Shown here piece by piece: positions 5,638-63,443 of a stretch of DNA of 64,000 nucleotides. The DNA lies in IMG/VR virus record IMGVR_UViG_3300035220_000425, positions 1 to 64,000 of that record. One strand, given 5' to 3'. The DNA comes from a virus. The stretch's first letter is position 1, and every line of letters starts with the position of its first letter. The position numbers and the translations under genes are program-made. A model generated the notes under the pieces. That model was not told where the DNA came from, did no database searches, and saw only the letters and a program-made list of their open reading frames with translations.

Positions 5638-5652
5638 GGAACACTAGCGTGC
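5638..5652 (+). promoter_or_regulatory. ACTAG box before tail assembly chaperone
   Basis: GGAACACTAGCGTGC, ending 13 bases before ATG 5666. Nearly identical to 47943-47957 before the endolysin gene. Confidence 0.5.
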
Positions 5653-5665
5653 TTTTGTCAAGCAT

Positions 5666-6217
5666 ATGCGAACTTTACCTTTTATTGTCAAACCAAAAGT
5701 TAAGTCTTTTATTGAAAAAATCGGAAACGAATCTATCGGGATTATCGAGATCGAAAGAAGAGGTTTCTTGAATGTTTCTGAAAAAGCTTTCGTAGATCAG
5801 GTCTCTCAAAGCGCCGAAACAGTCGCTACGACTGTAGCTTTAGCCACTAAACTGTCGAGCAAAACAAAAAAGACAGTAGAAGAGTGTTACACTGCAATCA
5901 TGGAAGCGGTGCAAGGGATTAGCGACAATAAATTCGCGATGAAAATTAAAGAAGAATATCCGGAAGAGCTCGGGTCAATTATGGCGGCCTTGATTGAAAC
6001 AGCGAGCAAGCGAAATCTGGCTTGTGCCAACATCCTGCTTGTCAGCAGAATCGATCCAGAGTGGGGCATTGACGACACCATGGACCAGCATCCAGAGATG
6101 ATTGACGCCCTGGCCGCTTTTTACAATGAAGAGGAACGTGGATATATGGGCGAGCCTGAGTCTTCGGAGCAGAATCCTGACGGAGGAGAAGATGTCGCTG
6201 ACATTGTGGGAAAGTAA
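5666..6217 (+). CDS. Tail assembly chaperone, short (gpG-like) form
   Basis: The 183-residue protein has a compact N-terminal domain (MRTLPFIVKPKVKSFIEKIG) followed by helices (QSAETVATTVALATKLSSK, then a region near residues 85-120 ending ETASKRNLACANILLVSR) and an acidic C-terminus. Position between the completion protein and the tube and tape-measure genes, plus a GGGAAAG slippery heptamer at its last codons, identify it as the gpG-type chaperone, which in lambda coats the tape measure during tube assembly. The short form ends at TAA 6215-6217. Unusually, it lies before the terminator and tube genes rather than between tube and tape measure. Confidence 0.8.
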   Translation: MRTLPFIVKPKVKSFIEKIGNESIGIIEIERRGFLNVSEKAFVDQVSQSAETVATTVALATKLSSKTKKTVEECYTAIMEAVQGISDNKFAMKIKEEYPEELGSIMAALIETASKRNLACANILLVSRIDPEWGIDDTMDQHPEMIDALAAFYNEEERGYMGEPESSEQNPDGGEDVADIVGK

Positions 6218-6846
6218 AGAGAGGAGAACATCAAGAGACTGTAGATTTTGAGTATTTATTCTGGGAGCTAAAATCCGGTTACCCCGGTGATAGTGAGTTT
6301 TCTTATTCTAATTTTTGGAGCTTGCCTTATCTTTACGTTGTTGATGCCTTTCAGAATCTTAAGAAGAAAGAGCAACTGCGATATCATAACAATGAAGCAC
6401 CTGTAGCGCTGTTAACGTCCTTGACAGCCAATTTGAACAGAGACGCAAAGAAGAGAAGAGAACCTTACACTATTGAGGACTTTTTTCTGTTTCAGCCAAA
6501 AGATTTCAAAGACGGCCCAGCACAGTCTTATGGATCGGCTGCTATGGCTCTTGTCGAATTGGAACTATTCCCTTCATGGGCATTGTTTGTATACAAGGCT
6601 TTAAAAGAATCCTCAGAAGGAAACGCTCCGAGCTTATTGGCCTTTATCTGCGAAGACGCAATATTATTAGCCCCCAGGGAAAATCATGAGAACAGTATCA
6701 AGTCGATGTTTATCGGACTAGAATCAGCTAGTGGGGCAAGGAGAAAGATGAAATCTCCTTGCGGTCTTGAGGTTTACATGCAACTGCCGAAGGCAAATGG
6801 CAAAGCTTTTGCAGAAGAAGACGTTATTAGTTACGTCATTAGCTAA
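6202..6846 (+). CDS. Frameshifted extension of tail assembly chaperone (gpGT-like T domain)
   Basis: This frame (-1 relative to the chaperone) opens after TGA 6199-6201 and runs to TAA 6844-6846. Joined at 6214 it adds about 210 residues: VKRGEHQETVDFEYLFWEL, then FWSLPYLYVVDAFQNLKKK and a helical remainder. The only internal starts before the conserved-looking part are unsuitable (TTG 6322 lies inside the fold), so expression by frameshift from 5666 is more likely than a separate start. In lambda-like phages the GT product links the tape measure to tube protein and is absent from the virion. The 3' end overlaps the antisense HNH gene by eight bases. Confidence 0.75.
   Translation, partial: HCGKVKRGEHQETVDFEYLFWELKSGYPGDSEFSYSNFWSLPYLYVVDAFQNLKKKEQLRYHNNEAPVALLTSLTANLNRDAKKRREPYTIEDFFLFQPKDFKDGPAQSYGSAAMALVELELFPSWALFVYKALKESSEGNAPSLLAFICEDAILLAPRENHENSIKSMFIGLESASGARRKMKSPCGLEVYMQLPKANGKAFAEEDVISYVIS
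6208..6214 (+). promoter_or_regulatory. Programmed -1 frameshift site GGGAAAG
   Basis: In the chaperone frame the bases read G GGA AAG TAA, a classic X XXY YYZ heptamer identical to that of lambda G/T, immediately before the zero-frame stop. Slipping back one base gives GGG AAA GTA and enters a frame open to 6846. Confidence 0.85.
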
Positions 6847-7321
6847 CTCTTTCGTAAAAAGTTTCGTAATGGTAAGAGCCAATTCTTCCAGTACGAAGCC
6901 ACTCTTTGATCAGAATCTCTGTCTCCATTGAGTAAAATGGTTGCATTCTGAACCATGCAATCCAGTTTTCGCTGCCTTTGTTTGCATTGCAACTCCGACA
7001 TGCTGGAATACAATTTTTGGTTACATCCTCGCCTCCTTTACATTTGGGCTTAACATGGTCAAGAGTTAAACTTTTTGAATCTATTGGAGTTGCTCCACAG
7101 TAAGCGCATTGGTTGTTCCAGGCCTCTCTAATCGCTTTTCTCCAAAGCCTTTTAGCATCTTTTGAATTCATAGCCTCTAGGTTGTAAAGGTAATCTTTAG
7201 CCATATCTCTTGGCCAAATTAAGAGGCTCGTTATCATTGTTGCGGAAACAAAGAAACGATGACTCGATCGAACGTCATAAGCATTTCCGCATCTGCCTTT
7301 ATTGTTCCTTATATGGCACAC
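6839..7321 (-). CDS. HNH endonuclease
   Basis: The 160-residue protein carries a complete zinc-supported HNH fold: CAYCG, then LTLDHVKPKCKGG (the DH of the HNH), then NCIPACRSCNANKGS, giving four zinc cysteines in two CxxC pairs and the terminal N and K. It is antisense to the tail genes and sits between the chaperone and the tail terminator, as free-standing homing endonucleases often do. An ATG inside (residue 29 or 50) may be the true start. It may spread by cutting related genomes lacking it; a packaging-linked role is another known possibility for phage HNH proteins but those neighbour terminase. Confidence 0.85.
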   Translation of the reverse strand: MCHIRNNKGRCGNAYDVRSSHRFFVSATMITSLLIWPRDMAKDYLYNLEAMNSKDAKRLWRKAIREAWNNQCAYCGATPIDSKSLTLDHVKPKCKGGEDVTKNCIPACRSCNANKGSENWIAWFRMQPFYSMETEILIKEWLRTGRIGSYHYETFYERVS

Positions 7322-7346
7322 TAGAACGCAATGATAACGTAGAAAA

Positions 7347-9043: not shown

Positions 9044-9053
9044 GGCAGACTAA
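9044..9053 (+). promoter_or_regulatory. ACTAG-type box before tape measure
   Basis: GGCAGACTAA directly after the terminator, 22 bases before GTG 9076; a variant of the repeated box. Confidence 0.4.
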
Positions 9054-9075: not shown

Positions 9076-12000
9076 GTGCCAGACTTTAGGGAAATTGGTT
9101 TTTCCGTAGAAGCAAAGAATGCTGCGGCAGCCAGAAGGGCACTAGAAAGCTTTATAGGAACTTTTGAAGAGCTTGGTGAACTAATTGCAAAGTTTGGGGG
9201 GACGATAGGAAAGTTTGACGGCGATATAAATATGTTCGCGAAGATTGAGACAGCCGGAGCGCATAAGGCTATAAGAGATTTAACAACGGATACTAATAAA
9301 CTTGGTACTGCTTTAAGCAAGCGAGAGCAATCTAATAAAAGACAATTAAAACTTGAAGAGCAAGGAGCGACACTTGCAAGACAAAGGCTTAGTCAAGCAA
9401 AGCAAGAATTAGGGGCCTTGGGGCCATTAACTAGTGGATATAAAATACAAGCAGAAAGGGTTCAGCAGCTTACTGAGGAGCATCGAAGAGCACAGGGCAT
9501 AATGCCTAATAGTGTCCAAGATATACAGGAGATTGGATCAGCACTGCAAGCTCAGGCAAGCAAGCTGACACTGGCAGAGCAAAAAACCAGTGGGTTGACT
9601 AATGAGATCGATATCAATGCGCGTTCACTGCTTAGGGCACAAGGAATACAGAAGGGGAGCGTACAAAGCCTTCAGTTCATGCAAGCCAAGCAACTAAAGC
9701 TTGCTACCAGTCTTAAGCTAGGAAGTAAAGCTCAGATTGCGGCTTCTAAAGCAGCGCAACTCTACGGCCAAAGAATCGCTGCGGCTAGTGGAAAAACCAC
9801 AAGTTTTATAAGTATTTTAGGAAAACTCGGAACTATTCAGTCTGGTATTCTTGCTATAAGTTCTGCCTTTGGACAAGTAGGTGGAGCGATAAACCAAGTC
9901 GTAAACAGAACTAAATCAGTAGAAGCCTTCTCATTAGCGCTGCAAAATGTTGGGTTATCTTCCGTTGAAACAGCACAAAAATTCAATGTTGCTGCTCAGT
10001 CTGCTATCAACCTAGGGGCTCCAGTAGAACAGGTTGAAAAGGCTTTTAAAAGAATTGTGCCAGCGCTAAGGGCTATTGGCTCCAGTTCTAGCGATACTAA
10101 TAAATTCATCGAAGGCTTAACGGCGAGAACCCAAGTCTTAGGATTGACTACAGAAGAATCAGGACGATTGCAAGAGGCATTTGCTCAGGTTCTAAGCAAA
10201 GGCAAACTTCAAGCAGAAGAACTTACTCAACAGATATCTGAAGTTGATGGTGCCTTCAGGACTCAGTTCGCAGATGCTTTAGGCGTCAGCATAGATAAGC
10301 TAGGGGAGCTTGTTGAAAGCGGCCAAGTCACAAGTACTGTCTTTGTCGACGCTTTCCTTAAGATGGAAAATGGCGCTGAGAGACTAAAAGGGAAGATTGA
10401 GAATGGTACTGCTACTGTTCAGCAACTGCAAAACAATATCGCAAACATACAAACTAAGACATTAGAATCTCTTGGTGCTGCGGCTGAGCCGGGGATCCGT
10501 GCAATACTAGAATTGTCAAATGCAGTAGCGAAATTTATACAAGAAGCCGTAGACAGTCCTTGGGGTCAAGCGTTAATAAATGCTTTTAACAGTATTGCTG
10601 GAGCAATAAAAAATCTTGGGAAATTGTTCATAGGTTTAGCTAAAGCTTTAGGGACTATATTGGCCCCTTTAGGACCATTAGTTCAAGCATTCTCTAATTT
10701 AGCTGGACCGCTCGCGGCGATTCTTGCGCCTCTAGTTGCTTTAAGACTAGCAAGTATTGCCTTCACGAAGGTCAATGACAAGATGGCTGAGTCTATAGGG
10801 AATGGCAATAAAACTCTTCAGTTGTTTAGAATATCAGTTAAACAATTAAAAGGTTCGCTTCTTAAATTAATAAAGGGAGATGTTTCTGGATTTTTTAACG
10901 GATTGACTCAATCCTTTAGGAGTTTAGGTAAAGCGACATCTAAGGGTTTATTAGGTGACTTCCCTTCCAAGTTGAAGGGTCTTATCGACCTAAGAAAAAA
11001 AGCAGCCGCCCCAGTAGCAGGAGATGCTGGTGCTAAGAAATATGAGGCAGCAGCCGCCAGTGCTAAATTGCTCGCCGCCAAGAGCGCCGGCATAAAAGCT
11101 GCGGCACTCGGTGCTAAGGCTGCGATAGTTGGAATAGGAGCGGCAGGTCTAGGTGCCTTTGCTGTCGTTGGCTTGGCCGCCGCCGCAGGCGCCCTCGCGT
11201 TTAATGAATATCAGAAATCAATAGGAGCGTTAATTAAGCCTATCAAAGAGTCTGAGAGCACTCTCAAGTCGCTAGGAATTGAATCAGAAAAGGCTACTAC
11301 CTTTGTAGAAAGGTTGAAGGATGGGTTTATAAGCGTAATACCTTTTGCTCGTCAATTAATACAGGGGATTGGTTCTTTAGTTTCTGGTATAAAAAGATTT
11401 GGGAGGGAACGAGCTTTTGAAGATGCCATGGCACAAAACCAAAAGCAGCTAAAAGGGCTTAGTGATTTTCTTGACAAAAAGGGAGCTCAAAGCTTCTTAG
11501 ACTACGGCAAGATTGCAAAGATGTCAGCAGAAGATCTTGTGAAATTCAGGAAAGGATCGGGTGCTGTAAAAACTAGCTTAGAAGCTCAGGCTGGCGCGTT
11601 GCAGCAGCAGATAGATAAGATGAAAGCAGCAGGCAACGTTAATGTACAAGAAGTCCAGCAATTAGAGAGGCAGAAGGATGCCTTCTTAGAGAAGGCAGCA
11701 GCAATAGAAATTGCGATGGACGGCACCCGACGTTTCACCGGAATAATTCACACAGCAGTGGACGGCGAAGGAACGCTAACAGAAAAACTTGAAGCTTCTA
11801 ACAAAGCATTAGAAACGAGAAAGCAAAAACTAGAGGCAGTAACAGCCGCCTTAGGAGCAGCAGGACAAGAAAAACTTAATCAAGGTTTAATAACCGAAGG
11901 GCAATTAGCAGTAAGGAATGCAGCTATTAGAGAAGCTGCCGCAAAATCTAACTTAGACGCCATCCAAAAGGAGATAGATCTCAACTTCAAACGTCAGGCT

Positions 12001-18292: not shown

Positions 18293-19176
18293 CTTATACC
18301 ACTAACTTGGTCTACGATCCAGACAAGTATCATTATTCTTATGTTCGAGATGTTGACAGTACTGGATTCGTTCCACTTACTGTTAATGATTTAAATCTGC
18401 CTAGTAGATGTGTGTACATTGAAGTAGATACGCCTCCAGATTACGGAACATTGAAGCTAAATGGCGTTACTATTCTTGATAGTCGCAACAACGCAATCCC
18501 AACGCAAATAAGCAAAGCGGATATCGCTTTGGGACTGCTGGTTTGGGACGCCAATGCATCAGACGTGTCTATACGTTTAAATTTTGACTACTTTGCGTAT
18601 GATTCTCAAGGTGAGACTCAGTCGATGCTGTATAACTGGCTGCCAATAACTATTCAGCTTGAGCCCACAGAAGAGGTAGATGGTGGTGATTTTGATTCCG
18701 GAGAAAGTCTAGGAGGAGTCTCAAGTGATGGCGGTGATTTCGTAATCGGAGGTAGTGCGGCATTATTGCAGTCATACGATGGCGGAAACTTTGATACAGG
18801 AGAGTCAAGCTATCCGGAAACCCCAGATCTAGGGTTATACGAAGCTACTATCAATACACCTTTAAAAGTAGTAGACCCTGACACTCTGGCACCTGTTACT
18901 GTTAGCTCGTTACCCTCAACCCATGAGGTTTTCCCAAGAAATTCTGATGTCTTTAGGTATGAGTTTAAGACAGAATACACATACGAATATAAATTTTCTT
19001 TTAAAAAGAAATTGTTCAAAGGATGGAACTATGGGGCTAATGTCCCGAACTTTGGGTATTCAAGCGATTACGGATCGATCTCAAATCCCACGACAAATTT
19101 AACAGTTGATTTCAATAATATAGTTGAGTACAACTATCCTTATCCTCCTAGTCGTTTGAAGCCCTCGGCACACTAA
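18289..19176 (+). CDS. Tail tip protein with GGDF-SGES repeats, 295 aa
   Basis: ATG 18289 overlaps the hub stop (ATGA). The N-terminal ~125 residues are beta-rich (VYIEVDTPPDYGTLKLNG resembles cadherin/VCBS-type repeats: PPxxGTLxLNG). The middle has three copies of a short acidic repeat: DGGDFDSGES, DGGDFVIGGS, DGGNFDTGES. The C-terminus is aromatic and polar. DGG(D/N)FD(S/T)GES motifs occur in tail proteins of marine phages. Coupling to the hub gene implies a structural partner at the tail tip. Confidence 0.6.
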   Translation: MTYTTNLVYDPDKYHYSYVRDVDSTGFVPLTVNDLNLPSRCVYIEVDTPPDYGTLKLNGVTILDSRNNAIPTQISKADIALGLLVWDANASDVSIRLNFDYFAYDSQGETQSMLYNWLPITIQLEPTEEVDGGDFDSGESLGGVSSDGGDFVIGGSAALLQSYDGGNFDTGESSYPETPDLGLYEATINTPLKVVDPDTLAPVTVSSLPSTHEVFPRNSDVFRYEFKTEYTYEYKFSFKKKLFKGWNYGANVPNFGYSSDYGSISNPTTNLTVDFNNIVEYNYPYPPSRLKPSAH

Positions 19177-22845: not shown

Positions 22846-22860
22846 TGGCGGTATCCTATT

Positions 22861-22878: not shown

Positions 22879-25800
22879 ATGGCTCTTCAGATTAGAAAAG
22901 TTACTGAGTCACAACGTGAACAGTTGATACTTAAGGCAGGCGAGCCCTTATATACAATAGATACAAATAAACTTTACATTGGCGACGGACAGACGAGGGG
23001 TGGCTTTGGACTTCTGGATGGACTTACTCTTTTAGAGTTTCTTGACGCTGACATAGATCATAATCCTCTTGAAGATAATGACTTTATTTACTGGAAGCCG
23101 AGCAGTAATAGATGGGCTATTGGCAAGAGGTACAAATCTCTGCAGGATTTGGCTGACGTTGATCTCGAAACAGATGCTACGAATGCCCAAGACAAGCAGA
23201 TCCTGATGTATAGTCAGGAGACTGGCAAATGGACAATAAAATATGACACAGCAGATGAATTCGGGCTGGAGGATCTTGAAGACGTTTCTGGAAGCCCTTC
23301 TAGTTTTTACGATTCTGAACGTACTGAAACGCACTATTCAAGCCTGCAATATAATGCTACAACTGCGAAATGGGATGTTATCGAGTTACCTCGAACTCCT
23401 AATGTTGGAGAGATGGAGGAAGTTACTTTAACGGCTAATCCTCAGCTAGGTCAAATGCTTTTCATTGATCCGTCTACTCAGAAATATGTTAATGACTACG
23501 CTAATCAAAATTTATCGCCAGCTTATAACTGTGGACTTTACCAAATTGAAAACAAAGACATAATAAAATTCAGCAGTAGCGTCGGTAAGTTTGTCAATCA
23601 TACTCCGAAACTTGCAGAAGACGTTCCTGAAATATCTATATCTGCTCTTAGCTCCTGGGAGCCGACTGATCAAGAATATAGTGTGATGATGTTTGGCGAA
23701 AATGCAGCATTTGCTATTAACAATGAGAGAGCTCATACATTAACAGCTTTCAAAAATCGCAAGCTAGTTTTTGACCTTTCTGACGCAACTCTTTTAAACT
23801 TAACTTTTAAATTTTCCGCTCAACCTGACGGAACACATAGCTTAGATCCGGTTGGATCTATCTGGTCGAGCTCCTTGGTAACTGAGACTGGTACTCCTGG
23901 CGTCGATGGCCGGGTTGAGATTGATCTACCAACTTACTTTGAAGATAAGGCCACCTCAAGCTACTGGATTAACACTGAGACTGACCCAGATTTCCCTCCA
24001 GTCTATTCACTCCCTAGTGGTGATGACGAAATCCCTGAGATAACATTTAATGTCTTAGGGAGCGTCCCAGACCCTAATGCATCGCAAGAGGAGTTAGATT
24101 CTGGCGGAGGGAATGTTCAAGATGCAGATATTGAACAAGACTTGCCTGGTCTCTACTATTTCTCTCCCGAGAATGCAGAATTTGGGGCTAAGATCCAGAT
24201 TAACGAGGCAGAAGACTTGCCTCCATTTGTCCTCTTCTGGGACGCAACTGCTAATGAATTTAATGTAAAAAGGTTTGATGTTACTGTTGGCTCTTTAGGT
24301 GATGTAGAGATCATCCCTGACACAGATGGATTCTTGTTTGACAATCAAATGCTGTCATTTGATAGCTCAACGCAGAAATGGACAACGCCCCTTGACAGAG
24401 TTGTTGGCCTGGGTATAGCGAGTTCTTTGCCAAGAAGATTCCAAGAGTTTGCAAACATGCTTTGGGCCGGTGGTGCTTCGGGACTAGGGGAATTTACCTA
24501 CAGTATGCCTAGAGGAGCGGAGATTGAAAGCATAACGATTAATCTTAATGAGCTTGAAGTAGAAGGCTCTGATGAAGAATTTGATGCTTTCTTCTTTGAT
24601 ACGGAAGAAGACAGAGAATATTTCTATGAATTGCTAGAAGAAGCTGAGACTGCTGACGTAGTAGCCGGAGGCACAGGAGAATTGTCTCGTCAAGTCATAA
24701 ATGATCTTGCTTCAGACGCTAACGCAAGAGTTATGAGAATAAGAACGAGAAAAAAATCTTATTCAAGGGAAGGCAGAAGTAGGTCTAATACCAGTCAAAG
24801 CTATGCAGGTGTTATAGCAGAATACAGCCAAGGAGGCATAGGAGGTGGCTCCATGTTTTCAGGAGGCCCTAACATAGGAGGCTCTGGCTTAGGTTCCGGT
24901 TCTGGTGGTCTAGGCGGGAATGGTCGAGAAAGTGCTCAAGGAGCCGGTTTTGGTGGCGACGGCTGGTCAGGCTCCTCAGAAGGGCAAACAGAGCCGTCTC
25001 TAGATGATTTAGTCGAAAGCGAAGAGTTTCCCGATCCTGCTCGTACAGCAGAAGTTTTTGTAGAAGCATATCAAAACTTTGGCAACAATACTAAGCAAAT
25101 ATTTGGAGTAATGCTGGCCAGGAACAGAGCTTTTGAGGCCCTCATGCCAAGAAGCACTAGAGATCCAAATGATTCAAGTGTTACCGATTCGACTATTGAC
25201 GCAAGTGACAGGTTCTCCAATGAATTACAGTTGGAATTTAATTTAATTGATGTATCTAGCGATCCAACTCCTCCTCAAATGTTTGGATGGAGACAGAGTA
25301 CTGATACTTACGGATATTATTACTTTACATTTGCTCAAAGAAATTCACAGCTTACGTTTAACACTAGAAATCATGAACTAATAGCACATTCTTACATGAG
25401 GCGAGTTGGTTGCACTCACACAAGGACTGGCAGATTCCAAGTTGAGTTCTACTACGATGCAGATGACAGCACTAAAATGGCAGGAGAGTGGCTAAGAATA
25501 GTAGAGTTTCAATCTGCTCAATCTGCTTATAATGGCACGATAACAGAAGTTGCATCTACAACAATTAGAGAAGGTTTAGAAGAATGGAGTGACGTAGTTC
25601 TATATCAAAAAGGCAATCGTGTCCTTTACCAAGATAAGGTTTGGGAATGCCTGGTGAGGACGACAAAGGGATTCCCTCCTGCTTCAGGAACTGCGGCAGT
25701 ACCTACTCAGGTGGTGGATGTTATTCAAGGAACACTTGCTATTAGTACATTCGTTGAGATTCCGCGTTTTAGCATTAAATCACAAAGATTCGAGGGGGTG

Positions 25801-28332: not shown

Positions 28333-28365
28333 TAAAGGAAACCTATTACGATTATAGGGTATGTT

Positions 28366-30398: not shown

Positions 30399-30434
30399 GG
30401 AACAATATAGCGCCTAACTGAGCAGGGATTGCTC
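30399..30434 (+). promoter_or_regulatory. Box plus hairpin leader before scaffold gene
   Basis: GGAACAATATAGCGCC (30399-30414) followed by TAACTG and a hairpin GAGCA/TGCTC (30420-30424 with 30430-30434). ATAGCGCCTAACTG is nearly repeated at 32365-32379 before the decoration gene. Confidence 0.4.
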
Positions 30435-30441
30435 TTTATAG

Positions 30442-31176
30442 ATGTCTGAAGAACTTAAATCGGCTATTGAAACAGAAGCCGTGTCCATTCCAGAGTCAAC
30501 ATTTGACACTGAGAACCAAGGACAAGAAAAGGAAGATGTTACCAATCTTCTAAAAGCCTTAAAGTCTGAGAGAGAAGCTCGTAAGACTTATGAGCGACAA
30601 ATCAAAGAGAAAGAAAAGCAGCTTGAAAAGTTTGCTGAGATCAACCCAGAAGAGTACAAAGTCTTACAGGCTGATGCAGCAAAAGCCGCAGAAACGGAGT
30701 CTCGCTATGGCGAATCAATTAGAGCTATTGAAGAGAAATATGGCCGACAGGCTGCGGAAGCCGAGGCTAAAGCGAAGGCCGCTGAAGTTCAGATTGCATC
30801 GTTTCAGAAGAAGTATGCTTTAGAAAAGGTATTTAATTCTGCCGGAGGCAGGACTGATGCAGCCGATGGCGTATCTTTCTTCGATATGTTCGCAGAGCAA
30901 CTAAGCAGTAGATTCACTTTAGAATCTGACGGAATTGTCGTAGTAGTTGATGGTCAAGGCGACCCTGTCTTGGATTCTGAGACCGGAAAAAGAATTACCC
31001 CAGAAGAATTCATCAGTAGTTTTAAGATTCATCCTGTTTACGGTACTTTCTTCAAAGGAGTTAAAGGTACTGGGGCAGGTTTAACTTACGGAGGAACTGA
31101 CTCTAACGGTCAGCCAGTTGAAGACCTCAGCGGAATGTCTAATGACGAATTATTTATGAAAGCTTTTGGTAATTAA
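30442..31176 (+). CDS. Capsid scaffolding protein
   Basis: The 244-residue protein lies directly before the major capsid gene and has the scaffold composition: an acidic start (EELKSAIETEAVSIPES), a long charged coiled coil (ALKSEREARKTYERQIKEKE and on to about residue 130, rich in Glu/Lys/Ala) and a compact Gly-rich C-terminal region (GTFFKGVKGTGAGLTYG) that could contact capsid subunits. Scaffolds guide procapsid assembly and leave before DNA packaging. No protease motif is visible, so release by a separate protease or intact exit is open. Confidence 0.75.
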   Translation: MSEELKSAIETEAVSIPESTFDTENQGQEKEDVTNLLKALKSEREARKTYERQIKEKEKQLEKFAEINPEEYKVLQADAAKAAETESRYGESIRAIEEKYGRQAAEAEAKAKAAEVQIASFQKKYALEKVFNSAGGRTDAADGVSFFDMFAEQLSSRFTLESDGIVVVVDGQGDPVLDSETGKRITPEEFISSFKIHPVYGTFFKGVKGTGAGLTYGGTDSNGQPVEDLSGMSNDELFMKAFGN

Positions 31177-31361
31177 CCTACAGGCTGCCTATTTCTAGAT
31201 TAAGAAATGGGAAGAATATTTATTTTCGGAATTATATGTTAGAAAGCACCCGGTTTAGTGCGACCGAGATGGTTGACCTGGGCAGGGTGTATCGAGTTGG
31301 AGCGAGACGCTCTGAACACGTTTCACCTTTTCCTTGTTCACCCTATTCAACTTGAGTTAAA
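31177..31361 (+). promoter_or_regulatory. Structured leader of major capsid gene
   Basis: A 185-base gap. Hairpin GAGCG-AGA-CGCTC at 31300-31312. AGGGTG (31284-31289) can pair with CACCCT (31339-31344), and CGAGTTG (31293-31299) with CAACTTG (31348-31354, one G-U); these two pairings cross, so they are alternatives or a pseudoknot. The second ends eight bases before the ATG. Confidence 0.5.
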
Positions 31362-33710: not shown

Positions 33711-33899
33711 ATGGATGAACAGTCTTATGTCACTTCAATGCAGATGAACAAAATGGCACTACGACTGCTCTACCGAACTGTTTCTGAGGGGCTCGATCGT
33801 TGGCCTGGAGGGGCGCCTGAGGAGCAAGAGTGCCTTTCTTCTATGAAGATGCAGCTATACGCTGCTCTTATGGAACATTTATACGATGCGGAATACTAA
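33711..33899 (+). CDS. Hypothetical helical protein, 62 aa
   Basis: ATG 33711 lies six bases after the basic-protein stop. The product is helical and Met-rich (TSMQMNKMALRLLYRTVSEG, SMKMQLYAALMEHLYDAEY). No recognised family. It closes the head gene cluster; fibre genes start 18 bases later. Confidence 0.55.
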   Translation: MDEQSYVTSMQMNKMALRLLYRTVSEGLDRWPGGAPEEQECLSSMKMQLYAALMEHLYDAEY

Positions 33900-44009: not shown

Positions 44010-44021
44010 GGCAGACTAGTG
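44010..44021 (+). promoter_or_regulatory. ACTAG box before fibre 5
   Basis: GGCAGACTAGTG, 22 bases before ATG 44044. Confidence 0.5.
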
Positions 44022-46682: not shown

Positions 46683-47132
46683 GTGACTGACACTTACACT
46701 TGGTCCGTGTCTAACATGGACTCTTCCACTGTTGACGGGGCCGTAAACACTGTCCACTGGAATCTCGAGGCCACACGTCCCAACCCTGTAGAAGGCGAAT
46801 ACGACTACAGAGCAGGCTCTTACGGGACAGTAGGTTTTATTCCAAACCCAGCGAGTAAAAAATTCATTAGTTATGATGACTTGACTGAAGAAACTTGCGT
46901 CAAGTGGGTTCTTGACTATTACGGGTCAGAACAAGTTGCCAGAATGCAATTAATGCAAAGCTCTGTTCTGGACGAGCAGCAAACTCCAACTAAATTTTCA
47001 GGGACTCCCTGGGGAAGGGCTATCCAAGAAATGGACGAGCAAGAGGCAGCAGAACAAGAGGAGTCTACAGAACAAGAGGAGTCTGCTGAGGGAGAGGATT
47101 CTACTGAGGAAGAGGATGGAAGCCTAGAATAA
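46683..47132 (+). CDS. DUF7936-like small phage protein, 149 aa
   Basis: GTG 46683 begins TDTYTWSVSNMDSSTVDGAV and continues NTVHWNLEATRPN ... GSYGTVGFIPNP ... FISYDDLTEETCVKWVLDYYG, an order common in small proteins next to fibre or lysis genes of marine phages (I recall the family as DUF7936, from memory). The C-terminal ~40 residues are a Glu/Ser repeat (EQEESTEQEESAEGED). Function unknown. Upstream TTATACT may serve as -10. Confidence 0.65.
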   Translation: MTDTYTWSVSNMDSSTVDGAVNTVHWNLEATRPNPVEGEYDYRAGSYGTVGFIPNPASKKFISYDDLTEETCVKWVLDYYGSEQVARMQLMQSSVLDEQQTPTKFSGTPWGRAIQEMDEQEAAEQEESTEQEESAEGEDSTEEEDGSLE

Positions 47133-47406: not shown

Positions 47407-47421
47407 GGCAGACTAGCGCAG
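47407..47421 (+). promoter_or_regulatory. ACTAG box before second holin-like gene
   Basis: GGCAGACTAGCGCAG, ending 13 bases before ATG 47435. Confidence 0.5.
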
Positions 47422-47942: not shown

Positions 47943-47957
47943 GGAACACTAGCGAGC
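47943..47957 (+). promoter_or_regulatory. ACTAG box before endolysin
   Basis: GGAACACTAGCGAGC, 12 bases before ATG 47970; differs by one base from 5638-5652. Confidence 0.5.
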
Positions 47958-47969: not shown

Positions 47970-49118
47970 ATGTCAAAAACAACCTGGGATTCAATTTATA
48001 CTATTGCTGAGAAGTTTGGCAGCAAATTTCCTGATGTCGTCAGCGCTCAGTGGAGTTTGGAGAGTGGCTTCGGAAAATTTACTTCAGGCGTCAATAACTT
48101 CTTTGGAATCAAGGGAGAGGGAACAAAAAAGACGACAAAAGAGTGGGATGGAGAAAAGTTTATAGAGATTATTGATGAGTTTAAAGATTTCGATTCTCCA
48201 GAACTTTGCGTCAAAGAGTTGGTTGAAAAGTGGTACAAGGATTATAAAGGTTATAGCGGTGTAAATAGGGCTAAATCTAGAAATGAGGCTGCTAGGCTTT
48301 TGATGAAGGAATCATACGCGACTGATCCTGAATATGCCGAAAAACTAATTAAACTTATGGATGAATACAGCAAAGATCACCCGGACCCTGTTGTAGCTGC
48401 CAATAGGCCGATCAAGTTACTAGAGGCTGCCAAACATTACAAAGGAGAAGTCCATCAGGATAGCGCCTGGCTGCTCCTGGACGGGCTTTTAACAGACGCT
48501 CAGAGGCAAGTCTTCACAACGGCCTACAGGAGGCCTCAGAAGCCCTCCAGAAGGGGTTACCAAGTCTTCTCACGCAATCCCTTAAATGTGGACTATTTCT
48601 GGCAAAGAGATTCCACTACAGGACACGGAGAAAGAAGTTGCCAGTCTTCAGCAGTCGCGATGGCCGTTGACTATATAAACCCAAACTTGATTGAAGACGA
48701 CGATGATTACTTGCGTTTAGTTTTTAGATTTGGCGATACGGTCTCGCAATCTGCTCACAAGTCAGCGCTGGAAAGCCTGGGGATGCAAAACGAGTTCAAA
48801 ATGAATGGATCAGAAGACGACATCGTAAATCTGATCGACAGGGGCTACCCAGTTCCTATAGGCATTTTGCATCGAGGCTACATCCATAGTCCGAATGGAG
48901 GGGGGCACTGGGTCACAATAATTGGATACACAAAGAAAGATTTCTTGGTCAATGATCCATTTGGTAAATTAGACATTATCTCGGGCGGATATTCAAACGC
49001 AGAATACGGATCGGGGAACAGGGTGGCCTATCCTCGTGACATGCTAATGAAGCGTTGGTTGATTTCAAGCAATACTGACGGTTGGTATTGGGACTTAAGT
49101 GGTAATAAAATACATTAA
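47970..49118 (+). CDS. Two-domain endolysin: glucosaminidase plus C39-like peptidase
   Basis: Residues about 1-135 form a FlgJ/glucosaminidase-type domain: QWSLESGFGKFTSGVNNFFG contains the catalytic Glu, followed by GIKGEGTKKTTKEWDGEKF and a helical YDSPELCVKE-like region. Residues about 205-355 are a peptidase C39-like fold: Cys in GERSCQSSAVAMAVDYINP, His in GGGHWVTIIGYTKK, Asp in VNDPFGKLD. The linker (residues 140-200) is basic. The first domain would cut glycan strands and the second peptide or substrate cross-links in the host wall. It follows the holin-like genes and has its own ACTAG box. Confidence 0.85.
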   Translation: MSKTTWDSIYTIAEKFGSKFPDVVSAQWSLESGFGKFTSGVNNFFGIKGEGTKKTTKEWDGEKFIEIIDEFKDFDSPELCVKELVEKWYKDYKGYSGVNRAKSRNEAARLLMKESYATDPEYAEKLIKLMDEYSKDHPDPVVAANRPIKLLEAAKHYKGEVHQDSAWLLLDGLLTDAQRQVFTTAYRRPQKPSRRGYQVFSRNPLNVDYFWQRDSTTGHGERSCQSSAVAMAVDYINPNLIEDDDDYLRLVFRFGDTVSQSAHKSALESLGMQNEFKMNGSEDDIVNLIDRGYPVPIGILHRGYIHSPNGGGHWVTIIGYTKKDFLVNDPFGKLDIISGGYSNAEYGSGNRVAYPRDMLMKRWLISSNTDGWYWDLSGNKIH

Positions 49119-53728: not shown

Positions 53729-53752
53729 AAGGGGTTGACCAACCCCTTTTTT
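53729..53752 (+). terminator. Intrinsic terminator 2 before sigma factor
   Basis: AAGGGGTT, loop GACC, AACCCCTT, then TTTT. Two terminators in a row isolate the sigma gene. Confidence 0.85.
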
Positions 53753-53786
53753 CTTCTAAAATTATCTCAGCAGTTTTTTTTTCATT

Positions 53787-54575
53787 TTGAAAGGTCGGGA
53801 CGCAGTCTCCTTTTGGTTAGAGAACGCTGGTAGATATCCTGTTTTACCGGTAGCCACAGTACTTCATCTTTCAAAGCAAATCCAGACTTTGGAAGAAGAT
53901 GACCCTCGAAGGAAGAAGGCTATAGATAAGCTTATTAAGCACAATTTGAAGCTAATTCCTCAACAGGTCCGAAGGATCGTAAAGGCGAGGAAGTGCTACA
54001 CCACTCCAGGAGCGACTCAAGAGGATTTATTGCAAGCTGGTGTCCTTGGGCTGCAAAAGGCCGCTGAAAAATATGATTACACCAGAGGCTACGCTTTTAG
54101 CACGTATGCCGTGAATTGGATCTATCAGCAAATCCAAAGGACTTCATACGCAAACCTGTCGATCGTAAGAGTGCCAGAGAACACTCTTAACGAGTTTTAT
54201 AGAGCTCATAACTCTCAAAATAAAGCTGACATCTCTTCCCTTTCAGAAAACGTGAAAAAGCGCTTCGACGACGCGAAGCTTGCCTTATTTGTTCGCTCTG
54301 CTGATCAGACGCAGCACAACCGATTGACTCATGAAAGCTATGACTGTCACTTGGGATCTTATTATGACGCTCCGCTACTTGATTCTGTCACTGACATATT
54401 CAAGTTATGCCCTGCCTTGAGCACCCTTGAGAAGAAATTGGTCATAGGACGCGCCATTGAGGGCAAGGACTACAAGGAACTAGGTGCCAAATACAGCATT
54501 TCATCTCATTATGCTTCTAAATTAATCAGAGGCGCACTGCAAAGGCTGCGCCAGGCTATGAACCAGATAGACTGA
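53787..54575 (+). CDS. Sigma-70-family factor A, 262 aa
   Basis: TTG 53787 is kept because it restores region 1.2 (FWLENAGRYPVLPVATVLHL aligns with the YLxxIGRxPLL of cyanobacterial sigmas). Region 2 is clear: LIKHNLKLIPQQVRRI, TQEDLLQAGVLGLQKAAEKY (2.1-2.2), then YTRGYAFSTYAVNWIYQQIQ (2.3-2.4), with VRVPEN after it. The C-terminal part (STLEKKLVIGRAIEGKDYKE, HYASKLIRGALQRLRQAM) is a region-4-like helix-turn-helix. It would redirect host RNA polymerase core to phage promoters. Two terminators precede it; the sigma gene B lies 6 kb on. Confidence 0.85.
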   Translation: MKGRDAVSFWLENAGRYPVLPVATVLHLSKQIQTLEEDDPRRKKAIDKLIKHNLKLIPQQVRRIVKARKCYTTPGATQEDLLQAGVLGLQKAAEKYDYTRGYAFSTYAVNWIYQQIQRTSYANLSIVRVPENTLNEFYRAHNSQNKADISSLSENVKKRFDDAKLALFVRSADQTQHNRLTHESYDCHLGSYYDAPLLDSVTDIFKLCPALSTLEKKLVIGRAIEGKDYKELGAKYSISSHYASKLIRGALQRLRQAMNQID

Positions 54576-56491: not shown

Positions 56492-57376
56492 ATGACTACT
56501 TTGCCGGCGGATGTCTCTTACTTTCAATCTGATTTTTCTTACAGGAAGGCTGAAGGGGAAAGTCAAACGCAATTAAAGTCGATCTTGCATAGTCCTGCTC
56601 ATTATCAAGCGGCTGCAAAGAGGTTCTTTAGACCGTCTTCAGCTATGATTATTGGTACTGCTACTCACTGCAAGGTTTTAGAAGGCGACGACAAGTTCAA
56701 TGCTGATTTTATTAAAAAACCTTCCAATATTAAGTACACCAACAAAGAAGGCCGTGAATGGAAGGATGAGCAAAAAGGCAAGACGGTCTTAAGTAATGAT
56801 GGTTACCACAGAGAATGGGATTCTGTCCAAGGTATGTCGGAGTCACTCAGACAGTTGGATTGGTTTAATCCAGAGCAGGATTACTACAGAAAATACAATG
56901 AGGTTTCTATTTACTGGATGGATCAAGGAATCCCTTGTAAAGCTCGGCTAGATCGAGTAATCGTCACAGATACTCACGTTCATGTTATTGACCTGAAAAC
57001 TACTGACTCTGTTTCGACTGACAAGTTTCAAAGCAAACTCGTAGACTTGGGTTACGATTTTCAGGCAGGCTGGTATACCTGGGCTGCATCGTTAGCATTT
57101 GGGCTCCCGGCCACATTCACTTTCGTTGCTGTCGAAAGGCAAGAACCTTGGTTGGTAAAGGTTTTTGACACTTCTCAAGATATGCTATCGGAGGCTCGAA
57201 GGAAAAACAAGAAAGCTTTGAGCCTTTTGAGAGGTTGTCGACAGGCTAATAATTGGCCTAAAGGAGAGGTGACAAGACAAACATTGCAATATCCTCGCTG
57301 GTATGCAATGACGCAAGACCCTGCTAGTATTGATGCAGCTAACATGACTGCCGATGAACTTGCCGGAGTACTCTGA
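56492..57376 (+). CDS. PD-(D/E)XK exonuclease, RecE-type
   Basis: ATG 56492 is preferred over an upstream start inside rusA. Family features: SQTQLKSILHSPAHYQAAAK (helix with first Gln/Leu motif), AMIIGTATHCKVLEG (the GxxxH motif), PCKARLDRVIVTD (D of the core) and VIDLKTTDSVSTDKF (DxKT: catalytic D and K), then LGYDFQAGWYTWAA. It resembles the RecE/exodeoxyribonuclease VIII-like phage nucleases that make 3' overhangs for annealing proteins. The neighbour at 52901 would be the partner. Overlaps thyX by 23 bases. Confidence 0.8.
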   Translation: MTTLPADVSYFQSDFSYRKAEGESQTQLKSILHSPAHYQAAAKRFFRPSSAMIIGTATHCKVLEGDDKFNADFIKKPSNIKYTNKEGREWKDEQKGKTVLSNDGYHREWDSVQGMSESLRQLDWFNPEQDYYRKYNEVSIYWMDQGIPCKARLDRVIVTDTHVHVIDLKTTDSVSTDKFQSKLVDLGYDFQAGWYTWAASLAFGLPATFTFVAVERQEPWLVKVFDTSQDMLSEARRKNKKALSLLRGCRQANNWPKGEVTRQTLQYPRWYAMTQDPASIDAANMTADELAGVL

Positions 57377-58052
57377 TCCGTGTGAATTTATAACTGTAAC
57401 GCCAAAAGCAGAGCAGCATATTGTCTACTGCGCCAGAGTAAGTAATCCAGCGAATCAAAGAAATGATTTAACGGCTCCGAAGCTTATCCGGTTTTTAATT
57501 AGACAAGGCCATTGGTCCCCCTTGGAGCAGTCCTTCATGACTGTCGAGGTAAATACAACGAGAGCCATTGCTCCTCAGATTCTTCGGCATGATTTTCACT
57601 TTCAAGAGTTTTCGCAAAGGTATCAAGATGTCGGAGCGCTAGGAGCGCCTGTAATGCCTCAATTAAGAAAGCAAGGAAAGACGAACCGTCAGACGAGTAC
57701 TGACGATCTTGATCTTGCTTTGGCTTCTCAATATAGAAGAAGAATTAGTGAGATTTTTGAAAACTCTATGCATTTGTATCAAGAGATGGTAAGTAACGGA
57801 GTAGCTACAGAATGTGCGAGAGGCATTTTGCCTTTAAATATTCGAAGCAGACTTTACATGACAGGCAGTGTACGGAATTTTATGTTTTATATAATGGTAC
57901 GTCGCAGAGAAGATACGCAATATGAGCACAGGATCATTGCAAACAGTATAGAAAATATTTTCAAAGAACAATTTCCGATTGTTTGGGAAGCGTGCGACAG
58001 CCTAGACTGGAATCTCAATATTGAGACAAAAAGCCCTACGGCAAAAATATAG
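57354..58052 (+). CDS. thyX: FAD-dependent thymidylate synthase with altered RHR motif
   Basis: 232 residues. ThyX landmarks: KLIRFLIRQGHWSPLEQSFM, NTTRAIAPQILRHDFHFQEF, FSQRYQDV, and LPLNIRSRLYMTGSVRNFMF with REDTQYEHRIIAN. The signature RHR-x7-S is changed: the seq after ILRH is DFHFQEFS, so the third residue is Asp rather than Arg and the spacing is one shorter. Ser and Arg of SQRY are kept. ThyX makes dTMP from dUMP with folate and FAD. Whether this one is active is uncertain. Confidence 0.85.
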   Translation: MNLPEYSDPCEFITVTPKAEQHIVYCARVSNPANQRNDLTAPKLIRFLIRQGHWSPLEQSFMTVEVNTTRAIAPQILRHDFHFQEFSQRYQDVGALGAPVMPQLRKQGKTNRQTSTDDLDLALASQYRRRISEIFENSMHLYQEMVSNGVATECARGILPLNIRSRLYMTGSVRNFMFYIMVRRREDTQYEHRIIANSIENIFKEQFPIVWEACDSLDWNLNIETKSPTAKI

Positions 58053-58081
58053 GCATCCTATCGAGATTCAGTGATTGGATC

Positions 58082-58844: not shown

Positions 58845-60357
58845 GCTCGGAAAAGATTACCTCAGAAGAGCCGCTCAATCTCAAGGGATGCTTAAGTCTC
58901 TTAGAGAAAAGAAGCTCCAGCAACTTGAAAAAGGTAAAAGGATTCTACTGCATAAATTTATAAAACAAGTTTATCCTAGCTACAAGTTTTACAAATTTCA
59001 CGCTACCCTGATAAATGAACTGCAAAAAATAATAGACGGCGATTGTACTCGCTTAATATTACAAGTTCCCCCAAGAACTGGGAAGAGTTTACTGACCTCA
59101 CAGCTTCTGCCAGCAGCTTATTTATTAGCTCATCCTGAACGTTTTGTGGGCATTACAAGCTATTCTGCTGAATTAAGCCAAGGATTCTCTCGCAAGGCTC
59201 GCGACTTTTACCGAGAAGCGGGCGGACAGTTAGATCCTAACTCCCAAGCCGTCAACGCCTGGTCAACGCAAGGTAACGGTGGATTATGGGCGGCTGGCGT
59301 TGGTGGCGCTATAACTGGGCGCTCAGGACATCTTTTGATCATTGATGATGCTGTCAAAAACAGGGACGAAGCCCAATCTCCAAGGTTAATGGAAAAACTA
59401 TGGGATTGGTATGCTTCTACTCTTTATACAAGACTTGAACCAGAATGTTCAGCTATTTGTGTGATCCAAACTAGGTGGTCAGAAAATGACATGATCGGTC
59501 AGTTGTTAGATAATGAGATGAATGTAAGCGAAAAGGGTCGAGAAAATTGGACAATTGTTGACTTGCCAGCTTTATCTGAAACGAGAGACAATAGACCCCC
59601 ACTGCCAGAGCATTGTGCGATCATTCAAGACTGGAGGGAAGAAGAAGGAAAGGCTGTCTGTCCTCAAAGATATGACGAATCCGATTACGAGAGGATAAGA
59701 GAAGCTATTGGTCCAAGGGAATTCGCCTCGCTTTACCAGCAGCGGCCCGCGCCGATAGGAGGCAACTTATTTAACCCAGAATGGTGGCAATACTACGAGC
59801 ACGATACAATTATGCCAGAATTTGATAGGACACTTCTATCTATTGACTGTACTTTTACTGATGCGAGCACAAGTGATTACGTCGTAGGCACCGTAGTAGC
59901 ACAAGCGGGCGCGTCTTTTTATGTACTAGATCTTTTCAGGGAAAAAGTTGACGTAATTGGAACCATGGCAATGATTTCTAGGATGTATAATAGACATTAC
60001 CTTGATGGTACTGTCATTGAATTAGCTGCTAGTGGCTTTGCTGTATATCAGATAGCAAAAAAGAAAGTTCCAGGATTGATAGGCTTCAAGCCAGAAAGGA
60101 GCAAAGAAGCCAGAGCTACTGGAATTGTTCCAGTTGTAGAAGCTGGAAACGTGTTCTTACCAGCTAGCGCTCCATGGCTGGATTCTTTCATCTCTGAGTT
60201 TAGTCTTTTTCCTGCTTCTAAAAACGATGACCAAGTCGACTCATTAGTCATGGCTATAAACTATTGTATGCAGCGTGTCGCTCCACAATTGACTCAAGTT
60301 ACTTGGGGAAGAGGCACTAGGCCCATGCAAGATGTTAATTTTTTTGAATCATGGTGA
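58834..60357 (+). CDS. terL: Terminase large subunit
   Basis: 507 residues. ATPase: Walker A VPPRTGKSLLTSQ (near residue 80), SYSAELSQGFSRKAR, Walker B HLLIIDDAVKNRDE (near 168) and coupling motif CVIQTRWSENDM. Nuclease: RTLLSIDCTFTDASTSDYVV (first Asp near 337), second Asp/Glu GTVIELAASG, third Asp NDDQVDSLVMAINY. This order defines the terminase motor that packages DNA into the procapsid and cuts it. It resembles the Terminase_6-type enzymes of T4/P22-like headful phages in motif layout; the cutting mode cannot be told from sequence alone. Confidence 0.92.
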   Translation: MANKLGKDYLRRAAQSQGMLKSLREKKLQQLEKGKRILLHKFIKQVYPSYKFYKFHATLINELQKIIDGDCTRLILQVPPRTGKSLLTSQLLPAAYLLAHPERFVGITSYSAELSQGFSRKARDFYREAGGQLDPNSQAVNAWSTQGNGGLWAAGVGGAITGRSGHLLIIDDAVKNRDEAQSPRLMEKLWDWYASTLYTRLEPECSAICVIQTRWSENDMIGQLLDNEMNVSEKGRENWTIVDLPALSETRDNRPPLPEHCAIIQDWREEEGKAVCPQRYDESDYERIREAIGPREFASLYQQRPAPIGGNLFNPEWWQYYEHDTIMPEFDRTLLSIDCTFTDASTSDYVVGTVVAQAGASFYVLDLFREKVDVIGTMAMISRMYNRHYLDGTVIELAASGFAVYQIAKKKVPGLIGFKPERSKEARATGIVPVVEAGNVFLPASAPWLDSFISEFSLFPASKNDDQVDSLVMAINYCMQRVAPQLTQVTWGRGTRPMQDVNFFESW

Positions 60358-60384
60358 TAGACTTTAGGTAAAGCTTCAGTAGAA

Positions 60385-61014
60385 ATGGCAAGAAAAGCTA
60401 AGTCATTCAGGCTTAATGAAGTACAGCAGCGGCTAGCTTCAGATAATATAAATCTAGCCAGGAGAGAAGCTTGGCGATTGCAAAGAACTACAGAAATTGA
60501 CTATGATACTTTAGAAGGTGCAGCTTTGGAAGGTTTATGCAAGGCCGCATATAGATACGATGCTTCGTCGGGGTATAAATTTAGCAGTCTTGCCGTTCCT
60601 ACAATAAGAGGTGAATTGCTTCATTATATAAGAGATCGCACTTATTCAATGAAACTAACTCATAGAATGCGCGAAACCTGGATAAAAGGAAGGCGTCTTA
60701 TTTATAAAGGATTTACTGACACTGAGATAGCAATAGCTTTAGAGATAGACCAGCAAGATTGGCAGGAAATAAAAAGCGTTTGTTCTGGACCTCCATTAGA
60801 ACTGACAGATCAAGCAAAATCAAGAGAAGAACTGGAACCAGATGAAATTGATTTTTATCTAACCTTTAAGGAGATAGCCGAGCAGTCCTGGGACCGCTTA
60901 AAGGAAGAGGACCAATCGGCTATCTTGAAATATTATGAAGGCGCCTCGTCGAAGCCTCCTCATGGTTGCCTACAAAGGTTATTTGAATTAGCCTATGAGA
61001 GCGATCTTTTTTAG
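60385..61014 (+). CDS. Sigma-70-family factor B (SigF/SigB-like), 209 aa
   Basis: Region 2: NINLARREAWRLQRTTEIDY, EGAALEGLCKAAYRYDASSG, YKFSSLAVPTIRGELLHYIR, closely following cyanobacterial SigF text (AERFDPSKGxxFSSFAVPxIRGExxHYLRD). Region 3 is LTHRMRETWIKGRRLIYKGF. The C-terminal region 4 appears shortened and lacks a clear helix-turn-helix. So it may bind -10 elements mainly, perhaps with other phage factors. It lies directly before primase and after terL. Confidence 0.8.
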   Translation: MARKAKSFRLNEVQQRLASDNINLARREAWRLQRTTEIDYDTLEGAALEGLCKAAYRYDASSGYKFSSLAVPTIRGELLHYIRDRTYSMKLTHRMRETWIKGRRLIYKGFTDTEIAIALEIDQQDWQEIKSVCSGPPLELTDQAKSREELEPDEIDFYLTFKEIAEQSWDRLKEEDQSAILKYYEGASSKPPHGCLQRLFELAYESDLF

Positions 61015-62576: not shown

Positions 62577-62605
62577 GGCATCCTACTTCGGATCTTAAAT
62601 TTTTC

Positions 62606-62827
62606 ATGTCAAGTATAGAATGGCTGTCTTTTTTGATACTTTCATACATTTTCTTTCAAGAGGAACTCGAAATAGGCTTGTCAATTTTAGTCCTGCGCTT
62701 GTTTGTTCTTTGTGCTAATACATACCTTTTGATTCGTTCGTATCTAATTTATCGTAAGCTAAAGAAAGGGATTGAAGCTAACGGGCTTCAGGTTCCTCCA
62801 TTTAGGTTCACCTCAATTGACAAGTAA
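62606..62827 (+). CDS. Small membrane protein, 73 aa
   Basis: Two hydrophobic segments: WLSFLILSYIFFQEE (residues about 5-18) and ILVLRLFVLCANTYLLIRSY (about 25-45), then a basic tail (RKLKKGIEANGLQVPPF). No family recognised. Starts after a 29-base gap with GGATCTTAAAT; lies between primase and small basic genes. Confidence 0.6.
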   Translation: MSSIEWLSFLILSYIFFQEELEIGLSILVLRLFVLCANTYLLIRSYLIYRKLKKGIEANGLQVPPFRFTSIDK

Positions 62828-62832
62828 CTCCA

Positions 62833-62982
62833 ATGTTCTCTGCTAACAAGGTTGAATTCACTCCAAGCACCCCAAAAAGAACCCGTATTGGATCAGGGAG
62901 ACTTGTCCGTCACGCAAAACCTCAAGGTAGGACTAACAGAAGCTCGCCTAAAAAGCCATACAGAGGCCAGGGGCGGAGATGA
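62833..62982 (+). CDS. Basic mini-protein, 49 aa
   Basis: ATG 62833. FTPSTPKRTRIGSGRLVRHA and KKPYRGQGRR are very basic; the KRTRIG ... KKxYRGQG order occurs in small proteins of cyanophages, as I recall, with no known function. Its TGA overlaps the ATG of the next gene (ATGA). Likely nucleic-acid binding. Confidence 0.7.
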   Translation: MFSANKVEFTPSTPKRTRIGSGRLVRHAKPQGRTNRSSPKKPYRGQGRR

Positions 62983-63278
62983 ATGCTTACGTTCTTCCAA
63001 CAAATATTATCTACGAAACTTGGCTACGCTTAGAAGAAAACGATTTAGCCTCCGCAGCTTTCTTCCTTTGGTCGTTTCGTAACGACCAGCCTGAAGACTG
63101 GACTGAAGTTAAAGTTTTTCTATTAAAAGAGTCCAACGGACATAAGGAACTTTTTTTAATGGCAAACTTACTAGGAATTGCAGAGAAAGATGACCTATCG
63201 GCCTCTTATCACCTAGTTCCTGGTCTTTCCTCCTTATATAAACGTATTCAAACGGCAAATCAAGATGACGAACCTTAA
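62979..63278 (+). CDS. Hypothetical protein, 99 aa
   Basis: ATG 62979 overlaps the previous stop; a larger frame starting at 62852 is a shadow. Product: TNIIYETWLRLEENDLASAA, FFLWSFRNDQPEDWTEVKVF, then a helical end. It overlaps the next small gene by 14 bases. No family recognised. Confidence 0.6.
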   Translation: MNAYVLPTNIIYETWLRLEENDLASAAFFLWSFRNDQPEDWTEVKVFLLKESNGHKELFLMANLLGIAEKDDLSASYHLVPGLSSLYKRIQTANQDDEP

Positions 63279-63399
63279 GTTTGTAACAGCTTTGGTCAAA
63301 AGATTGTTAGTCAATCAAAAAGAAAAGGATAAAGATAGCTGGGACAAGATTTGCATGAGGGATCCGAGAAATCCAGGTTGTAAGGTGTACGACGTTTAG
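63265..63399 (+). CDS. Mini-protein with C-terminal CxxxPxNPxCKVYD motif, 44 aa
   Basis: ATG 63265 starts in the end of the previous gene. The protein ends CMRDPRNPGCKVYDV, a Cys-pair motif found at the end of many small phage and plasmid proteins, as I recall. N-terminus is a helix (FVTALVKRLLVNQKEKD). Just before the reductase gene; a role with it is only a guess. Confidence 0.6.
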   Translation: MTNLKFVTALVKRLLVNQKEKDKDSWDKICMRDPRNPGCKVYDV

Positions 63400-63416
63400 A
63401 TAATATGATGCCATTA

Positions 63417-63443
63417 CCGGTAGACTGATCTTACGAATACCGG
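63417..63443 (+). promoter_or_regulatory. Inverted repeat and ACTGA box before reductase gene
   Basis: CCGGTA (63417-63422) and TACCGG (63438-63443) form a possible hairpin just before ATG 63449; GGTAGACTGA (63419-63428) is a box-family variant. Too short for a known B12 riboswitch. Confidence 0.35.

Follow-up and report, generated by a model that had tools for sequence, protein, structure and literature searches.

A box before late genes of SigF-encoding cyanosiphoviruses as a putative -10-only promoter

What is the short box that recurs before many genes of a cyanophage-like virus, and what reads it? The question is raised by a 64,000-nucleotide stretch of viral DNA (positions 1 to 64,000 of IMG/VR record IMGVR_UViG_3300035220_000425, hereafter the window), which is nearly all of a 64,089-base record. 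The closest relatives of its terminase, capsid and SigF-like sigma factor are those of the cyanosiphoviruses S-CBS2 and S-CRES1/2/3, with P-SS2 next. The original prediction had suggested that the box is the core of a phage-specific promoter or else a leader element, and that one of the two phage sigma factors might recognize it. We estimate a probability of roughly 75% that the box, GGNANNCTA(G), is the -10 region of -10-only late promoters, which would be recognized by the host core RNA polymerase together with the phage SigF-like sigma.

The box and its position before genes

The core of the box reads GGNANNCTA(G), with GGNANNCTA as its nine-letter word. A start codon follows most often at 28-31 nt, with distances from the GG ranging from 24 to 37 nt. 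A self-written expectation-maximization search (zero or one occurrence per sequence), fed with the 60 nt upstream of every listed gene, recovered the same motif separately from S-CBS2, S-CRES1 and S-CRES3 together (335 genes), from P-SS2 (130 genes) and from the window (60 genes, namely 54 plus-strand and 6 minus-strand ones that we selected among the listed open reading frames (ORFs)). Such a search, with related phages included, had been proposed as a check by the original prediction. Its own long consensus, GGMASACTAGCG, does occur (3 exact copies, 4 with at most one mismatch, 0.85 expected), but is too narrow, and GGNANNCTA(G) describes the box better. The box is real, and wider than first described. 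The variable letter in GGNA is A, C or T in 98% of 89 sites, while the six fixed letters are invariant by construction in GG-aligned site sets.

A copy was counted as near-start when an ORF start lay 26-34 nt downstream of its GG. In the window, this held for 14 of the 28 plus-strand copies and for none of the 4 minus-strand copies (background 5%, p = 1.7e-10). Ten phage records with a gene for a SigF-like sigma together hold 309 copies, 145 of them near-start (background 7%, p = 3e-82). When the six fixed letters were substituted in these ten records, 16 of the 18 single changes lay at background. The exceptions were C to A (29/182 near-start) and the last A to G (50/378), and part of the latter excess is the word TGGTAGACTG before sigF, the gene of the SigF-like sigma. 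Eight further SigF-phage contigs, picked from sigF loci and all kept, were each enriched near starts as well (p from 0.01 to 9e-17). Hence the enrichment was present in 18 of the 18 SigF-phage records tested. Contigs G004 (a relative of G005) and G006 (a relative of G007) were excluded from these tests, and contigs G001, G007, G010, G011 and G015 were tested in part.

IMG/VR contains at least 80 sigF loci, or 63 after dereplication. These 63, which share some members with the other record sets and do not form an independent sample, hold 253 copies in the sense of sigF and 40 in the opposite sense, with 94 of 293 near starts (background 8%). Five of them (L146, L144, L092, L147 and L110) have no plus-strand copy; the whole contigs of L146 and L144 are enriched for the box near starts. 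A scan of genome contigs led to one locus, in a metagenome-assembled genome labelled Proteobacteria.

The sites of the window, with exact boxes unless a variant is named, are as follows.

4177..4185, plus strand: box GGAAGACTA, 25 nt before the ORF at 4202
4519..4527, plus strand: C-to-A variant GGAAAAATA, 28 nt before 4547; probable, of a weaker class
5638..5646, plus strand: box GGAACACTA, 28 nt before 5666; the orthologous S-CBS2 gene has GGTAGACTA at 28 nt
7315..7323, plus strand: box GGCACACTA, 32 nt before 7347
9044..9052, plus strand: box GGCAGACTA, 32 nt before the tape measure gene at 9076, adjoining a T-tract
19167..19175, plus strand: box GGCACACTA, 29 nt before 19196
22850..22858, plus strand: box GGTATCCTA, 29 nt before 22879
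28337..28345, plus strand: box GGAAACCTA, 29 nt before 28366
30399..30407, plus strand: probable one-letter variant GGAACAATA, 43 nt before the scaffold gene at 30442; orthologues in three relatives have GGCATACTA at 45-50 nt
33890..33898, plus strand: box GGAATACTA, 28 nt before 33918
44010..44018, plus strand: box GGCAGACTA, 34 nt before 44044
47118..47126, plus strand: box GGAAGCCTA, 33 nt before 47151
47407..47415, plus strand: box GGCAGACTA, 28 nt before 47435
47943..47951, plus strand: box GGAACACTA, 27 nt before the endolysin gene at 47970
58052..58060, plus strand: box GGCATCCTA, 30 nt before 58082, the terS position just upstream of terL; terS is boxed in three relatives
62577..62585, plus strand: box GGCATCCTA, 29 nt before 62606
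63419..63427, plus strand: one-letter variant GGTAGACTG (score 10.7), 30 nt before 63449, the ribonucleotide reductase position; exact boxes stand there in S-CBS2 and S-CRES3

All words quoted by the original prediction are in the sequence. Five of its ten genes carry an exact box (5666, 47970, 47435, 44044 and 9076, with the first G 27-34 nt before the start), and those at 63449 and 30442 carry the one-letter variants listed above. At 22879 it had the right gene and the wrong word. The start it placed at 4541 is probably 4547, with the variant GGAAAAATA upstream. The gene at 56492 has no box (score 2.0), nor has the orthologous gene in three relatives, and AGACTAG alone, as read at 56492 and 4541, was rejected as a form of the box. 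Eight boxed genes had been missed (4202, 7347, 19196, 28366, 33918, 47151, 58082 and 62606).

The C-to-A variant, GGNANNATA, has near-start copies in the window at 969, 1975, 2590, 4519, 32759, 35451 and 36651, 24-36 nt upstream of the starts. Such copies make up 7/32 in the window, 5/35 in contig G002 and 7/25 in contig G003, and are rare elsewhere (1/16 in S-CBS2, 0/11 in S-CRES3 and 1/26 in S-CRES1). The G and T variants at the same letter gave no near-start copy in the window. GGNANNATA may be a relaxed form of the box in the AT-richer members.

Late genes and the putative promoter

The boxes stand before virion, lysis and terS genes, mostly in intergenic DNA and often after terminator-like DNA. 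GGNANNCTA(G) is common to the upstream DNA of orthologous tail, endolysin, terS and other late genes in S-CBS2, S-CRES1 and S-CRES3; the tape measure and endolysin genes, for example, are boxed in all three as in the window. Among the plus-strand genes of the late block, 17/41 are boxed in S-CBS2, 20/48 in S-CRES3 and 17/41 in S-CRES1, compared with 0/17, 0/15 and 1/14 of those in the early block. None of the 42 minus-strand genes of these three phages is boxed. The window gave the same picture, with boxes before 12/33 plus-strand genes of the late and 0/9 of the early group. The terS gene is boxed in four phages; no box was found in P-SS2, where the 80 nt at the end of the record, which lie upstream of terS, were searched. 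In S-CBS2, a tandem pair of boxes, 35 nt apart, lies within a direct repeat before gp050 (L012:36120-36163).

Enrichment in intergenic over coding DNA, whose absence would have refuted the original prediction, was found. Plus-strand copies in the window amount to 2.78 per kb touching intergenic DNA versus 0.24 per kb in fully coding DNA, and over five genomes the former density is 12- to 41-fold above the latter. A gap of at most 8 nt to the upstream gene was found for 2/88 box genes versus 184/377 others. T-tracts lie just upstream of 13/88 box genes versus 24/378 others (p = 0.014), and among the 5-mers in the region 9-32 nt upstream of 241 sites, those with the strongest enrichment over letter shuffles resemble terminator DNA (CCCTT, GGCCC, TTTTT). 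Counted from GG, a purine is found at +13 in 80% and at +14 in 77% of 89 aligned sites (73% and 73% in 96 other sites). These purines fit a transcription start, since +1 falls there if the T of the box is -7. Together, the position, the terminator-like context, the -10-like letters, the purines at the expected +1 and the enrichment in all 18 records provide good support for the box as a promoter element. The promoter core of the original prediction is therefore well supported.

No -35 signal was detected: the information content of columns -45 to -12 never exceeds 0.11 bits in the 89 sites or 0.09 in the 96 others. A spacing-free search for TAGGC, TTGACA, TTGAC and GTATA in -32..-9 of 241 sites gave no enrichment either. 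With no detectable -35, it would fall to sigma regions 2 and 3 to recognize the promoter. The putative register, in our own numbering, would be G-14 G-13 N-12 A-11 N N C-8 T-7 A-6 G-5, so that the two standard contacts of a -10, A-11 and T-7, would be retained. Transcription would start at a purine 13-14 nt past the first G, and the leaders would be about 16 nt long (predicted median 16 nt). Many late genes or small operons would each have their own copy of the box.

A leader or RNA function, the other half of the original proposal, is disfavoured. The box might act in RNA as a leader, ribosome-docking or processing signal of polycistronic late messages; its near-fixed distance to the start codon would suit this, and these phages do encode an RNase III (S-CRES gp1). 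However, terminator-like DNA directly upstream would cut off such a message, boxes almost never precede genes that abut the upstream gene, the purine signal sits at the expected +1, and the stretch from box to start shows no further element (at most 0.12 bits). We consider an RNA signal quite improbable. Weak ribosome binding sites, which had been ascribed to the boxed genes, are not clearly special to them either: a Shine-Dalgarno-like 4-mer precedes 24/88 box genes versus 143/378 others, a difference that is not significant (p = 0.065).

Still less credible is a -35-type element, like TAGGC or the ECF word GGAAC, of messages that lack a leader and begin at the ATG. It would account for a GG that lies 28-31 nt before many starts and is often preceded by T or A, but the distance varies over 24-37 nt, and no -10 element appears between box and start in either GG-aligned or start-aligned sites.

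Two phage sigma factors and a putative sigF promoter

The window encodes two sigma factors, and a promoter-like element of another kind precedes one of them.

60385..61014, plus strand: SigF-like sigma factor, the proposed box reader (profile match, fold model and alignment)
53787..54575, plus strand: RpoD-like sigma factor, the proposed early or middle sigma (profile match)
60355..60363, plus strand: extended -10 of sigma70 type, TGATAGACT, 30 nt before sigF

The best NCBIfam model for the SigF-like protein is cyanobacterial SigF, at 88.4 bits. From the 80 sigF loci, 33 were chosen for protein alignment and 42 for the count of sigF upstream regions as being diverse and complete, some close relatives among them. 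The 34 aligned SigF-like members agree well through CSGPPLE (window residues 133-139) and are divergent beyond it. An AlphaFold2 model consists of sigma2, sigma3-like helices at 93-134, a low-confidence linker and three C-terminal helices, and residues 10-86 superpose on sigma70 region 2 with an rmsd of 1.4. Aligned with the RpoD-like family by hhalign, the SigF-like family matched over residues 42-124 only.

The sigF gene itself carries a different element. TGNTANNNT was found 24-42 nt before sigF in 33 of 47 upstream regions (2% by chance), and was not found in the other 14, P-SS2 included. The box GGNANNCTA occurs in none of the 47. Autoregulation of sigF by its own box, for which GGTAGACTG upstream was the candidate, was thus rejected; the words there read better as an extended -10, TGGTAGACT or TGATAGACT. 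The late boxes do not fit the sigma70 extended -10, as in the putative register they have GG at -14/-13 and no T-12. Because sigF has an extended -10 of sigma70 type, transcription would run from the host sigma to the RpoD-like sigma and sigF, and then to the late genes. The different element before sigF thus suggests a sigma cascade.

The main alternative keeps the same -10-type promoter and assigns its recognition to the RpoD-like sigma of the phage, or to host SigA aided by a phage co-activator. A-11 and T-7 are shared by sigma70-type promoters, and an RpoD-like sigma was found in 6 of the 7 searched IMG/VR records that hold a SigF-like one (the seventh, G006, is 17 kb). Several observations point the other way. 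GGNA resembles the SigF -12 element. The element before sigF is another one, TGNTANNNT, and the RpoD-like gene has TTGACA/TATACT-type sites upstream in the isolates S-CBS2, S-CRES3 and S-CRES1, with a poorer candidate in the window and no such site found in P-SS2. S-CBS1 and S-CBS3 carry an RpoD-type sigma, of a different subtype, yet have 1 and 0 copies of the box. We therefore regard an RpoD-like or SigA reader as unlikely, and the SigF-like sigma is, by inference, the better candidate of the two phage sigmas named in the original prediction. The window's candidate sigma70 promoter for the RpoD-like gene (TTGACC, 19 nt, AATTAT; 53735-53765) lies inside terminator-like DNA. At G003:C1:72051-72917 (L062), the RpoD-like match crosses two in-frame TAA codons.

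Counter-evidence, known systems and meaning

Several points limit the observation itself or weigh against a SigF-read late promoter. The raw plus-strand count in the window is unremarkable (28, versus 19 per strand in shuffles), half of these copies have no nearby start, and 164 of the 309 copies in the ten SigF-phage records are not near-start. Strand asymmetry was dropped as proof of the box because it is in part a general feature, shown by other GGNANN words as well (for instance GGNANNTTA, 22/5 in the window). In the window, S-CBS2, S-CRES1 and S-CRES3, no box lies within 60 nt of the major capsid gene, which would need to be read from an upstream promoter; the DNA upstream of it (31302-31361) shares TTCACC/TTGTTCA-like words across these four phages. 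The NCBIfam score of about 88 bits is far under the cut-off of 261. Pfam matched region 2 of the SigF-like protein and did not detect region 4, which is weak evidence because three of the four RpoD-like sigmas gave no region 4 match either; judged from the fold model, the three helices at the C-terminus may represent region 4 in reduced form. Every SigF record of sufficient length also encodes an RpoD-like sigma, so presence cannot separate the two readers.

The controls weigh little as well. No near-start enrichment was seen in S-CBS1, S-CBS3, S-CBS4 (50 of 69 kb tested) and Mwe-JY26 (50 of 101 kb tested), cyanophages without a strong SigF-like match: whole records of the latter two have no phrog_36098 match, and the former two have weak ones (13.7 and 14.7 bits) within their RpoD-type sigma. 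These controls are weak because they are few, unrelated or GC-rich, of differing lineage, and hold only 0, 1, 9 and 12 copies.

Chance or coding bias, to which the raw count and the general strand asymmetry might point, has next to no probability given the positional enrichment, the conservation before orthologous genes and the substitution scan, which already contradicts it.

The T4 late consensus is TATAAATA, and in the SigF-phage records none of its 29 copies has a start 26-34 nt downstream. As far as the available part of the source describes them, T4 late promoters (gp55/gp33/gp45, PMC2988020) are alike in having a diverged phage sigma, a -10-type element without a -35 and late virion genes as targets. 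They differ in letters, and the SigF-type sigma here appears to keep region 3. SigF promoters of Synechocystis PCC 6803 such as pilA1 have TAGGC at -32 and GGTAA at -12, according to the portion available of PMC2758279. The phage box is like these cyanobacterial group 3 promoters in GG-N-A at the (putative) -12 register, in the SigF-type sigma and in its distinctness from sigma70 promoters, whereas it differs by the added C-8 T-7 A-6, by its phage late-gene targets and by having no TAGGC at -32. The lack of that host element is a further point against a SigF-type reader: TAGGC is not enriched (3/241 sites versus 3.8 in shuffles; 69 versus 66.6 with one mismatch). By analogy, the box would resemble T4 late transcription in its workings (phage sigma, no -35) and host SigF promoters at the -12 element only.

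Phage-borne sigmas of host type have been described before. The sporulation-type sigmas of Bacillus phages are able to act on sporulation genes of the host, and lytic infection reportedly does not require them (PMC9429907, in the part available). They are likewise host-like, of SigF/SigG type, while here the boxes precede the phage's own late genes. The group 3 sigma of P-SS2 belongs to the same family as the SigF-like sigma of the window; its authors expected a specific regulon and listed 19 BPROM sigma70 promoters, and the available part of their paper gives no motif for it (PMC2784084). Among the literature matches listed and the parts of papers examined, we found no earlier description of the box, which is not to claim its absence from print.

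We see even odds for the wider picture, in which a host-type SigF was converted, in a widespread cyanosiphovirus lineage, to a reduced sigma for promoters that have only a -10. Many individual late genes would be preceded by their own box at about 28-31 nt, and late transcripts would then be numerous short units, each separately initiated and with a leader of roughly 16 nt, under a two-step sigma cascade. The present analysis proposes a consensus and a regulon for a group 3 sigma of phages, the targets of which had been left open in the P-SS2 paper of 2009, to judge from the part available (PMC2784084). The box word also offers a means to annotate late transcription units across a lineage that is common in IMG/VR. 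Finally, a SigF-type sigma would here recognize promoters by the -10 alone, and the system may provide sigma/promoter pairs for work in cyanobacteria.

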